From Phycisphaerae bacterium (GTDB lineage: Bacteria; Planctomycetota; Phycisphaerae; UBA1845; Fen-1342): 64,000 nt of DNA. Both the position numbers and the translations under genes were made by a program. The stretch lies in NCBI GenBank assembly GCA_017999985.1, contig JAGNKU010000001.1, positions 425,276 to 489,275 of the forward strand, given 5' to 3'. How positions within the stretch are numbered: the first letter of the stretch is position 1; every line of letters starts with the position of its first letter. This document shows positions 1 to 35,834 of the stretch, in pieces. Below the pieces are notes generated by a model. It had not been told where the DNA came from. It was given only the letters and a program-made list of their open reading frames with translations, and ran no database searches.

Positions 1-437
1 CCAACCATCCACCAATTGCATAGGAAGACATGCACCGGCAAATCGCACTGGATCTGCCGGACGAGCGGGATGAAGTCGTTGCCGCCGTGGCCGTTGACGA
101 GCACGATTTTGCGAATGCCGTGTCGATGCAGCGAGGTGATGATGTCGCGCACGAGCGTGTCGAGCGTGCTCTGCGCGACGTGAATCGAAAGCGGGAATTC
201 GGATAAGTTGCAGTCCACGCCGAACGGAATGACGGGCAGGCAAATAACCGACTGGCACTGCGGCCAAGCGGTTTCGCAGCACCGCCGGGCAATGTAGGTG
301 GTATCGAGCGCGTCCTCGCCCTCGGGCAGGTGGCGGTTGTGCGCTTCGGTCGCGCCGATCGGCAGCACGGCGACCTCGTATTTGCGCTGTGCGATGCGAT
401 GCAAGTTGGTCGCGGACAGGTCCCACTCGTTAATCAT
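1..437 (-). CDS. Creatininase-family amidohydrolase (3' part outside the window)
   Basis: Translating the minus strand from the ATG at 437 gives an open frame of 145 codons that runs off the left edge, so the C-terminus is missing. It shows the two signatures of the creatininase/creatinine amidohydrolase family: an E-A-H-x-x-H-L-P segment near residue 35 (the second position after EAH is Asn-Arg where Gly is usual) and N-G-H-G-G-N near residue 120. These carry metal-binding residues in the family. Members hydrolyse cyclic or linear amide bonds, and the substrate here cannot be read from sequence. The start lies 10 bp after the stop of the transglutaminase/beta-lactamase gene on the same strand, so the two are probably cotranscribed. 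Link to murein salvage is by position only. Confidence 0.85.
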   Translation of the reverse strand, partial: MINEWDLSATNLHRIAQRKYEVAVLPIGATEAHNRHLPEGEDALDTTYIARRCCETAWPQCQSVICLPVIPFGVDCNLSEFPLSIHVAQSTLDTLVRDIITSLHRHGIRKIVLVNGHGGNDFIPLVRQIQCDLPVHVFLCNWWMV

Positions 438-447
438 TGCAGGCACC

Positions 448-34316: not shown

Positions 34317-34337
34317 CCTCAGTCCCTGCACCGCCGG

Positions 34338-35834
34338 CTATGTGTACACCGTCTCCAGCCGCGCCTTCGGGTAATAGTGCCGGCAAATCGCCGCGTGGTC
34401 GATCCCCGCCAGCGCCATCCCCAGCGCCCCGATCTGACACATCCCTACACCGTGCCCCCACCCCGCCCCGCGCAGCGTCACTGCCACCAGCCGCCCATCC
34501 GCATCCCGCTGCGGCCGGACGGCGAACGCGCTGCTGTACAGGAACTTGCGATGCAGCACCTGCCGGATGCGATACTCGCTCTCCACGCGACTGCACACCA
34601 CGTCCCCGCGCGCGTTGGCCCACTCGACTTCCACGATGTATGCCCGACCGCTCACCCCCCGGGCCCGCACCCGCAGGTCGCGCAGCTCTACCAGCTCGCG
34701 CGCATCCGTCAGCTTGTCACGCAGCAGAGCTTCGAGCTCCGCGCGCTCATACCGCACCGTCCAGCGGAAGTAATCGTCCGTCGTGTCCACCCGCCCGAGG
34801 TACCGCCCGATCGCCTCCACCGGCACCATGTTCGGGCTGCAATAGCACCGCGTCGTCTTCAGCCACGCCCCATCCAGGTACTCGTCCAGATCGTTCTGCA
34901 TTGTGGCACCGGCGTCGCGCCGCTGGTCAGCGCCCGAGCTCGGCCAGGCGGGAGCTTTGCCCTCCCCAGCCAGCCCGGCCGCGCAGCGCGCCCTGAACGA
35001 TTCCAGCCACCCGCGCTCCGCCGCGTCCGCCGGCGCGTCCACGATCGGCGAGATCCCCGGCTTGTCCAGCCCCCACACCGCCCACGGCGTTTCCGATATC
35101 CCGCCGCAGCTTTTCGCGTAATTCGCATCCAGCACCGCACCCGTCGGCGCCAGCAGCACTTCGCCGCGCGTGTTGCGCACCGCCGCCAGCGCCGTCGGCC
35201 CCAGATCCCCCGTGCCCTGGTACCGCTGGCAGCAGTCGTCGTTGCAGCGATCGAACGGTTCGGTCTCGTGCTTCGGCTCCGTCATCGCCAGCAGCCACGA
35301 ACGCGCCACGACGCATTGCGCCTTCAGCAGATCCGCCGGGCACGCCCCGCTCATCTCCGCCGTGATGACCCCCGCGAGGTAGTCCTCCAGCGGCAATTCA
35401 TTCACCAGCACCACGCCACGCCGCCCCGGCACCAGCTCCAGCACGCCCCCAAGTGTCTCATCGATCCGCTTCTGCCAGTGGAACCCCCGTCCCGCCACAA
35501 CGCCGTGCACGGTTACGCCAGCGCCCGCCGGCGTCAGGCCACCGGCAGGCCGCGCGGTGGGGACGAGACGCAGCACGTCGCCGGCGATCGGGGACGCGTT
35601 GCCGACGGTCGCGGCCACGCCCGCGCCCGACCGCCGCACCTCCAGAACCGTGCCCGGCCCCAGTCGCCGTGGCTCGGTCGCCGGGCTTTCCAGCAGGTAC
35701 GGCTCGTCCGGCACGCGCAGGCGGACGACGTCGAAGGCGTCCTCGTCGAGGATGATCCCGATCCGCACAAAAGGCTCGATTCGTGCGGCGGGCGTCCACG
35801 CTCGGATTCCCGTCGGTTTGGGTGCCTGGCTCAT
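34338..35834 (-). CDS. SpoIID/LytB-domain protein (murein lytic transglycosylase-like)
   Basis: This 498-residue protein carries a SpoIID/LytB domain from about residue 150 to the end: L-P-L-E-D-Y-L-A-G-V-I-T-A-E-M, K-A-Q-C-V-V-A-R-S-W, D-A-N-Y-A-K-S-C-G-G and G-W-G-H-G-V-G-M-C-Q-I-G. In Bacillus SpoIID is a lytic transglycosylase for peptide-free murein; LytB is an amidase enhancer. No signal peptide is evident at the chosen start. The start at 35834 has GGAG 6 nt upstream; the frame continues upstream through a 31-bp tandem repeat, which I regard as non-coding. An N-terminal beta-rich domain (about 15-110) precedes the catalytic part. It is followed by the SGNH esterase. Confidence 0.88.
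   Translation of the reverse strand: MSQAPKPTGIRAWTPAARIEPFVRIGIILDEDAFDVVRLRVPDEPYLLESPATEPRRLGPGTVLEVRRSGAGVAATVGNASPIAGDVLRLVPTARPAGGLTPAGAGVTVHGVVAGRGFHWQKRIDETLGGVLELVPGRRGVVLVNELPLEDYLAGVITAEMSGACPADLLKAQCVVARSWLLAMTEPKHETEPFDRCNDDCCQRYQGTGDLGPTALAAVRNTRGEVLLAPTGAVLDANYAKSCGGISETPWAVWGLDKPGISPIVDAPADAAERGWLESFRARCAAGLAGEGKAPAWPSSGADQRRDAGATMQNDLDEYLDGAWLKTTRCYCSPNMVPVEAIGRYLGRVDTTDDYFRWTVRYERAELEALLRDKLTDARELVELRDLRVRARGVSGRAYIVEVEWANARGDVVCSRVESEYRIRQVLHRKFLYSSAFAVRPQRDADGRLVAVTLRGAGWGHGVGMCQIGALGMALAGIDHAAICRHYYPKARLETVYT

Follow-up and report, generated by a model that had tools for sequence, protein, structure and literature searches.

A candidate peptidoglycan-scavenging locus of a Phycisphaerae bacterium pairs a kinase of predicted ROK-like fold with a two-domain glycosyltransferase

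In Tannerella forsythia, the genes Tanf_08345-08385 form one transcript that encodes a xanthan lyase, two glycosyltransferases (gtf), lytB, ampG, ybbC, murT, murK and murQ; Tanf_08355 is the gtf located between the other gtf and lytB, and the authors name genes of peptidoglycan recycling and of protein glycosylation in this transcript (accessible parts of PMC5388701). MurT belongs to the sodium symporter superfamily and MurK is a kinase of N-acetylmuramic acid (MurNAc), according to the accessible parts of PMC5790795 and PMC10465942. The cluster of Bacillus subtilis is murQ-murR-murP-amiE-nagZ-ybbC (PMC5061867, same restriction). Here, we analyze a stretch of 64,000 nucleotides, called the window (G000:C1:425276-489275), from a Phycisphaerae bacterium (GenBank assembly GCA_017999985.1, 5.23 Mb, 98.65% complete; contig JAGNKU010000001.1). 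Its first 35,834 nucleotides hold a block of genes for amidases, GHL10 glycosidases, the exo-muramidase NamZ, a sodium symporter of the SSS family, a kinase without a named family, and the MurNAc 6-phosphate etherase MurQ (Table 1). We propose, with a probability of about 0.65, that this block is the Phycisphaerae version of Tannerella-type scavenging of peptidoglycan glycans, with a kinase of ROK-like fold that is part of an old cytoplasmic module built around a family 2 glycosyltransferase (GT2). The gene families named in an initial annotation, made from the sequence without database searches, were found in their places by Pfam and NCBIfam profile scans. The block contains further genes that it had not listed, encoding GH9, FG-GAP, DUF5010/GH99-like, aldo/keto reductase, GT2, acyl-carrier-protein-like (ACP-like), CoA ligase, GlmU and GDSL lipase proteins.

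A linked SSS transporter, sugar kinase and MurQ (window positions 19216-24782) are common to the window and to the Tannerella transcript. The likeness extends to the SpoIID-type gene (lytB), to the glycosyltransferases and to NamZ, which we take to be the product of the Tannerella ybbC. The xanthan lyase may equal the Golvesin protein of the window, judging by the names alone in the accessible text. The window differs in that its kinase is of a family other than MurK and in that AmpG was not found in its genome; it adds GHL10 and Amidase_3 genes, NagB and an alternative GlmU. With the B. subtilis cluster, the window shares MurQ and a NamZ (ybbC) near a beta-lactamase-fold protein, which AmiE presumably is as well. 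It differs by the lack of any GH3/NagZ found in the genome and by the presence of an SSS transporter, instead of a component of the phosphotransferase system, beside MurQ. The initial annotation knew of no described planctomycete locus of this kind. This holds for planctomycetes in the literature we searched (most subscription papers lie outside it), where we found no peptidoglycan-recycling or muramic-sugar locus by title or start of abstract; outside planctomycetes, the Tannerella operon is a parallel already described. Phycisphaerae combined with muramic terms gave no such locus by title among the matches listed, and the sole mention of MurQ with planctomycetes in the accessible text is the title of a reference.

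The kinase is central to our proposal. It could not be assigned to MurK or AnmK: it matches no Pfam family (E-value 0.1), including PF03702, and no relevant PDB sequence, the lone match being a ribosomal chain (E-value 0.022). It has no NCBIfam match either. The Pfam ROK model misses it and matches weakly 4 out of 19 members of its family. The "sugar kinase" of the initial annotation thus lacks a family match, but is backed by the predicted structure (predicted local distance difference test, pLDDT, 93.1), which resembles ROK sugar kinases. The N-acetylmannosamine kinase 2yhy heads the list, level with other rows (VIA-align: Z 26.5, root-mean-square deviation, rmsd, 3.0 over 288 aligned). ROK-type kinases and glucokinases appear in this list; MurK chains are not among its best 50 rows, which is no evidence against MurK. 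In an alignment of 61 rows (the window kinase and 60 of the 77 kinase open reading frames, or ORFs, described below), the residues D18, G19, G20, D161, E169, G187, G189 and G191 are kept in all rows, so that the phosphate-loop, catalytic-Asp-like (D161) and second glycine motifs are invariant, whereas the ROK zinc motif CxCGxxGC occurs in none. Hence, the predicted fold and D161 are shared with the ROK kinases (NanK, NagK, glucokinase), and the absence of the zinc motif and of a Pfam ROK match sets the new kinase apart. Given the ROK-like fold, the invariant motifs and the missing zinc motif, it probably represents a separate and active sugar-kinase-like family. K117 and R132 are also invariant (61/61) and would fit an acidic substrate.

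We scanned 114 genomes of the window's order for the kinase, MurQ, NamZ_N, AnmK, BadF and the GT2. The kinase is present in 26 of them, and in 7 out of 198 genomes drawn evenly from the class. MurQ was matched in 109 genomes of the order, NamZ_N in 36, AnmK in 43 (42 over the cut-off), BadF in 95, and the GT2 in 32 (E-value 1e-60). Pieces of the order GT2-kinase-(amidase, on the opposite strand)-MurQ-SSS-GHL10c-Golvesin recur in five genomes (G089, G213, G217, G258 and G238), in which GHL10c, SSS, MurQ, Amidase_3 and the kinase are grouped. In the locus L045, thirteen window genes are collinear (NagB-ROK-GlmU-CoA ligase-ACP-GT2-kinase-Amidase_3-MurQ-SSS-GHL10c-Golvesin-FG-GAP), and GHL10b and the GH99-like gene are absent from the run. 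The block exceeds what is expected by chance, as genomes of other genera show the core order again. The initial annotation had proposed a role in peptidoglycan breakdown and MurNAc handling and had made it depend on gene order in relatives; the core synteny holds, with MurQ, SSS, amidase, GHL10 and kinase staying together across several genera. Genome G198 has the same grouping, but a GKRP-like protein stands in the place of MurQ. On its contig (L057, 4062-5399), this tandem protein of two SIS domains follows the kinase where MurQ was expected; it recalls the eukaryotic glucokinase regulator, which we take to be a relative of MurQ.

The boundaries of the block did not hold as well. The initial annotation described a single unit of 35 kb, and we rejected it: among the 26 kinase genomes, NamZ is linked to the kinase (at about 20 kb) solely in the window and in G089. 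The other 24 have no NamZ near the kinase, of which 7 lack any NamZ match, and many of the contigs are short. MurQ is located at most 3 kb from the kinase in 8 out of 26 genomes, and the loci searched gave no match to the deacetylase, the GH9 or the reductase close to the kinase.

The closest partner of the kinase in the order is the GT2, found in 22 of the 26 kinase genomes versus 1 of the 88 others (p = 2e-18; this and the following p-values are from Fisher tests that ignore phylogeny and wrongly take the genomes to be independent). This count includes 23 of the 32 GT2-matched genomes, all with at least 652 bits; the nine left uncounted belong to one family (f3), have 216-256 bits and no kinase, and the line was drawn post hoc. 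The lone genome with a GT2 and no kinase (G268) has it at the end of a contig. The two genes lie about 780 kb apart in G248, which is a single contig, and on separate contigs in G201, where the kinase is about 60 kb inside its own. They are also on separate contigs in the more fragmented assemblies of G247, G205, G206, G217 and G246. The association of GT2 and kinase therefore exceeds physical linkage, because they co-occur in several genomes where they are not linked. NamZ is also associated with the kinase (19/26 versus 17/88, p = 7e-7), co-occurring with it in 19 genomes when 8.2 are expected, which, with the resemblance of the gene set to the Tannerella ampG-murTKQ, is in line with the peptidoglycan role proposed initially.

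The GT2 has a predicted structure with two GT-A-like domains (pLDDT 90.8). Its best fold match is the K4 chondroitin polymerase of Escherichia coli (2z86), with which it shares the tandem arrangement of these domains, and it also resembles heparosan polymerases. The comparison reveals differences: the rmsd is about 21 over both domains, and the N-domain of the GT2 has D-N-x instead of DxD. This D-N-x is found in most of the stretches examined where DxD is expected, whereas the C-domain keeps its DSD and ED motifs in all 42 rows of an alignment (the window GT2 and 41 out of 62 GT2 genes), so the protein may have one active site.

To find relatives of the kinase, we scanned a genome collection. 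The single protein retrieved none, and an alignment of the family was needed as query, giving 113 matches, of which 80 loci were kept. By record titles, from which phyla were assigned by hand, they comprise 24 Planctomycetota, 25 Neomarinimicrobiota, 15 Bacteroidota, 10 Calditrichota, 2 Sumerlaeota, 1 Caldisericaceae and 3 others. One locus counted as Planctomycetota (L061) is titled Alphaproteobacteria; it has a Phycisphaerae-type GT2-kinase pair and its title is probably wrong. Three loci (L046, L051 and L055) have no kinase ORF in simple gene calls, though tblastn matched the kinase there, and the 77 with a kinase ORF form the base for the clustering of neighbors. Among these 77 loci, the clustering of ORFs found a GT2 in 61, SpoIID in 49, an AmpG-like protein of the MFS family in 28 and NamZ in 21. 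All the genes counted are on the strand of the kinase (GT2 62/62, SpoIID 49/49, AmpG-like 29/29, NamZ 24/24), and these four families cluster with the kinase on one strand in Calditrichota, Neomarinimicrobiota and Bacteroidota. NamZ is upstream of the GT2 in 7 out of 24 cases and downstream in 17. The three AmpG-like proteins that were scanned have TIGR00901 as best NCBIfam model, with 135-180 bits, below its cut-off of 350. Further recurrent members of these clusters are SSS, MurQ, beta-lactamase-fold, HGSNAT-like and Golvesin proteins, and the SSS of the window is 29% identical to the one adjoining NamZ in L112. In the midpoint-rooted tree of the kinase, the best-supported deep split separates Planctomycetota and one Sumerlaeota row from the rest, and a GT2 is located near the kinase on both sides of it.

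A few other genes were observed in these loci. A GNAT-type acetyltransferase is near the GT2/kinase pair in 8 loci of Planctomycetota and Bacteroidota (including L058, L086 and L108). A protein resembling heparan-alpha-glucosaminide N-acetyltransferase, of which one was scanned with Pfam, is found in 7 loci of other phyla (including L080, L081, L091 and L106).

The SpoIID protein of the window matches solved SpoIID structures in both halves (4rwr). Its Glu160, in a G-V-x-x-x-E-M motif, is kept in 50 out of 50 rows and would be the equivalent of E88 of B. subtilis, and the cysteines C197, C202, C243, C332 and C466 are kept in every row covering them. In the accessible parts of PMC6635528, SpoIID of B. 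subtilis cuts naked glycan and E88 is essential. The drawings there give the homologues from Chlamydiae a signal peptide; an Asp was important in the chlamydial enzyme, in which other acidic mutants had no effect. The proteins described here share with the SpoIID/LytB lytic transglycosylases the domain and the conserved Glu at the motif position, and differ from them by the five conserved cysteines and the lack of an N-terminal signal or anchor. We searched for signals with a simple heuristic, an uncharged hydrophobic 12-mer within the first 60 residues, excluding genes that start at most 6 bases from the end of the locus. No such segment was found in 46 out of 48 SpoIID proteins versus 1 out of 22 NamZ. 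The heuristic errs in both directions, as MurQ, a cytoplasmic enzyme, was positive in 2 out of 9 cases and Amidase_3 in only 4 out of 8; the kinase was positive in 1 out of 76 and the GT2 in 2 out of 60. The two SpoIID exceptions are L069, with a segment at residue 48, and L107, whose upstream start is probably miscalled. A hidden upstream signal is unlikely, because the frames were taken from the most upstream start, an in-frame stop precedes it in 48 out of 49 cases, and the SpoIID start is at most 60 nucleotides from the kinase stop, or overlaps it, in 41 out of 46. The SpoIID of the window shows no N-terminal hydrophobic segment by eye and is likely cytoplasmic.

What we observe directly are gene families, synteny, co-occurrence and, within the sensitivity of our searches, no matches to the usual enzymes; we infer compartments, substrates, reaction order and regulation as follows. 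Outside the cytoplasm, amidases would remove peptides, and the GHL10 (DigH-like) enzymes and NamZ would cleave the bare glycan. The SSS symporter would import the released muramic sugar. Inside the cell, the ROK-fold kinase would phosphorylate an amino sugar, of which MurNAc or a closely related compound is the likeliest, and MurQ would take off the lactyl group to yield N-acetylglucosamine 6-phosphate (GlcNAc-6-P). A MurNAc route can thus be assembled from the NamZ, SSS, kinase and MurQ predicted in the window, and the NagC-like repressor probably controls the block. The kinase would belong to an old cytoplasmic module together with the two-domain GT2 and, in other phyla, the signal-less SpoIID enzyme; the scavenging system would thus hold an undescribed, probably cytoplasmic unit with putative substrates. 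GH3/NagZ, AnmK (PF03702) and AmpG (TIGR00901) were not found in the window's genome, and a tblastn search with the MurK-like protein of the Bacteroidota locus L104 found no such gene in the 64 kb of the window. The new kinase is therefore the candidate at hand beside MurQ. The fate of GlcNAc-6-P may involve another deacetylase, or its direct use through the adjoining alternative GlmU.

Several results weigh against this proposal. In 18 of the 26 kinase genomes MurQ is on another contig, distant or replaced, and not within 3 kb of the kinase, and three genomes (G270, G271 and G272) have kinase, GHL10c, amidase and Golvesin without an adjoining MurQ and without any genomic match to the GT2. No NagA match in the window's genome exceeds the cut-off (the best is partial, with 33.5 bits), and the complete route into glycolysis put forward initially is not supported. 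Overall, the initial annotation is right on the parts and mostly right on the use of wall sugars, but the block has loose limits and lacks its glycolytic end. The distribution of AnmK does not complement that of the kinase (7/26 versus 35/88, p = 0.26, counting 42 of the 43 matched genomes, as one is under the cut-off), which gives no statistical support to the kinase as a replacement of AnmK. In L104, a MurK-like kinase (156 bits to 8ow9) is beside MurQ and the new kinase beside GT2 and SpoIID; in the Neomarinimicrobiota locus L091, AnmK is close to the new kinase. Since such enzymes are co-present, the new kinase need not be the MurNAc kinase, and its substrate is putative. Outside the window, the genome may still carry a MurK-like gene, as PF01869, the sole model used to look for one there, misses the protein of L104. 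Finally, about 9.5 kb separate the SpoIID of the window from the kinase. Of the 24 Planctomycetota loci, 3 (clustering) or 4 (tblastn) have a SpoIID near the kinase, upstream and never downstream, and none has a NamZ in flanks of up to 10 kb. It is therefore in other phyla that GT2, kinase and SpoIID form a tight order, and the trio is looser within Planctomycetota.

These results leave room for other readings. Rather than serve foraging, the block could recycle the peptidoglycan of the cell itself as it grows and divides, its amidases, GHL10 and SpoIID being enzymes of division or remodelling. DigH is tied to the separation of daughter cells in E. coli (from a source accessible in part), chlamydial SpoIID is tied to the division septum (accessible parts of PMC6635528), and MurQ is near-universal in the order (109/114). 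Such turnover is a possible, if somewhat unlikely, explanation, given that the usual recycling set (AmpG, GH3/NagZ, AnmK and NagA) was not found in the window's genome, that the kinase is sporadic (26/114) and goes with NamZ, and that GH9, FG-GAP and GH99-like proteins lie within the block. These GH9 and GH99-like domains would fit a locus for an unrelated sugar polymer, in which GH9, GHL10, GH99-like and deacetylase proteins act on cellulose or chitin and MurQ and NagB serve general amino-sugar use, the more so as sequence does not fix the substrates of GHL10. We regard this as very unlikely: in different genera, the amidase is found together with MurQ and the kinase, and NamZ, MurQ, amidases and SpoIID are wall-specific families.

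The remaining readings concern the GT2/kinase pair. It could be a separate unit building a surface or intracellular glycan with GlmU, CoA ligase and ACP, and merely adjoin wall-degrading genes. The resemblance of the GT2 to chondroitin and heparosan polymerases favors this, as do its neighbors in the window, L045 and L049, which include alternative GlmU, CoA ligase and ACP-like genes. Moreover, in six Neomarinimicrobiota loci (L071, L075, L078, L090, L092 and L093) the kinase is followed by PSP1 and CoaE, with a GT2 nearby in five, and neither SpoIID nor NamZ was found there. Yet the SpoIID gene of other phyla lies downstream of the kinase in the same orientation, at the short distances given above, and NamZ and AmpG-like genes recur by the pair, which makes a separate unit unlikely. 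A bolder version of our own proposal is that an undescribed pathway for murein glycan operates inside the cell and consists of GT2, kinase and signal-less SpoIID: a cytoplasmic lytic transglycosylase would cut MurNAc-GlcNAc glycan, either imported as bare oligosaccharides or built inside as a polymer by the GT2, the kinase would prime the sugar, and MurQ and GlmU would return it. We find this rather unlikely as it stands. If true, the SpoIID enzyme would, as far as our searches show, have no cytoplasmic predecessor among murein lytic transglycosylases, and the role of the "gtf, gtf, lytB" genes in the Tannerella operon might be explained as well. Literature searches for a cytoplasmic, intracellular or cytosolic lytic transglycosylase gave nothing relevant by title and start of abstract, nothing was found linking SpoIID with MurQ, and papers matching the NamZ names were mostly unrelated among those listed.

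If the scavenging proposal is correct, uncultivated Planctomycetota and a number of other phyla join the few model bacteria from which MurNAc scavenging is known, and the kinase becomes a candidate for genomes where AnmK is not found. The cluster of the other phyla would place a domain that cuts wall glycan where no wall should be. The GT2/kinase pair, with a kinase outside Pfam and NCBIfam families, and its clustering with a signal-less SpoIID deserve attention.

Table 1. Genes of the block in the first 35,834 nucleotides of the window, with the evidence for each assignment.
Feature	Position	Strand	Evidence and remarks
Transglutaminase-core and serine beta-lactamase-fold protein, one ORF	448..3051	-	PF01841 77 bits; PF00144 233 bits
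NamZ exo-beta-N-acetylmuramidase	3145..4404 (likely start 3145)	+	PF07075 (NamZ_N) 281 bits; PF20732 (NamZ_C) 147 bits
Polysaccharide-deacetylase-like protein, lipoprotein by eye	4401..5204	+	PF01522 (Polysacc_deac_1) 59 bits
Aldo/keto reductase, membership in system doubtful	5201..6181	-	PF00248 204 bits
GH9 glycosidase, membership doubtful	6166..7818	-	PF00759 183 bits
GHL10 glycosidase a	7847..9604	-	PF02638 80 bits; relatives near kinase in L032, L011, L052
FG-GAP repeat protein	9601..11397	-	PF01839 145 bits; relatives in L032, L045
Amidase_3-like protein with Golvesin_C and fn3 domains	11324..14404	-	PF25275 90 bits; PF01520 23.5 bits
DUF5010/GH99-like protein	14551..16191	-	PF16402 29 bits
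GHL10 glycosidase b	16250..17854	-	PF02638 109 bits
GHL10 glycosidase c, core gene	17930..19180	-	PF02638 143 bits; adjoins SSS in relatives
SSS sodium symporter, core gene, putative MurT-like role	19216..21096	-	PF00474 (SSF) 84 bits
MurQ, MurNAc-6-P etherase, core gene	21295..22245	-	TIGR00274 365 bits (cut-off 302); NF003915 383 bits
Amidase_3 protein, core gene, strand opposite to neighbors	22404..23564	+	PF01520 124.5 bits
Unnamed sugar-kinase-fold protein, central to the finding	23574..24782	-	predicted ROK-like fold, no family match
Two-domain GT2 glycosyltransferase, kinase partner	24880..26520	-	PF00535 90 bits
ACP-like ORF	26617..26862	-	sequence by eye; relatives in L045, L049
ATP-grasp CoA ligase	26903..29098	-	PF13549 240 bits; relatives in L045, L049
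Alternative GlmU (UDP-GlcNAc diphosphorylase/acetyltransferase)	29141..30397	-	TIGR03991 341 bits (cut-off 225)
ROK repressor, NagC/Mlc-like	30451..31713	-	PF00480 129 bits; N-terminal MarR-type helix-turn-helix
NagB glucosamine-6-P deaminase	31870..32670	+	TIGR00502 326 bits (cut-off 237); relative in L045 88% identical
M14-type peptidase, putative MpaA-like role	32748..33638	+	PF00246 59 bits
GDSL lipase	33702..34316	-	in same block
SpoIID-domain protein	34338..35834	-	PF08486 76 bits; TIGR02669 143 bits

Some of these assignments call for comment. Two murein amidases had been annotated initially: the Amidase_3 of the core is clear, while the Golvesin protein falls below the Pfam cut-off of 27 bits, with H/E/H/E as candidate zinc ligands by eye; relatives of the latter were found near the kinase in other loci. 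The best NCBIfam model of the first ORF is PBP4B (126 bits, under the cut-off of 385). NamZ has both its domains, a solved relative (4k05, 428 bits) and a hydrophobic N-terminus by eye. The best solved chain for the SSS is 5nv9, a putative sodium:solute symporter (104 bits). The ROK repressor carries the zinc motif CxCGxxGC, as CACGNNGC. At the left edge of the window, the reading frame at 3-455 resembles by eye a creatininase-family protein. Position 35834 is the likely start codon of SpoIID, and directly upstream of it, at 35900-36170, lies a minisatellite of 31 bp with 8.7 copies and 84% matches.

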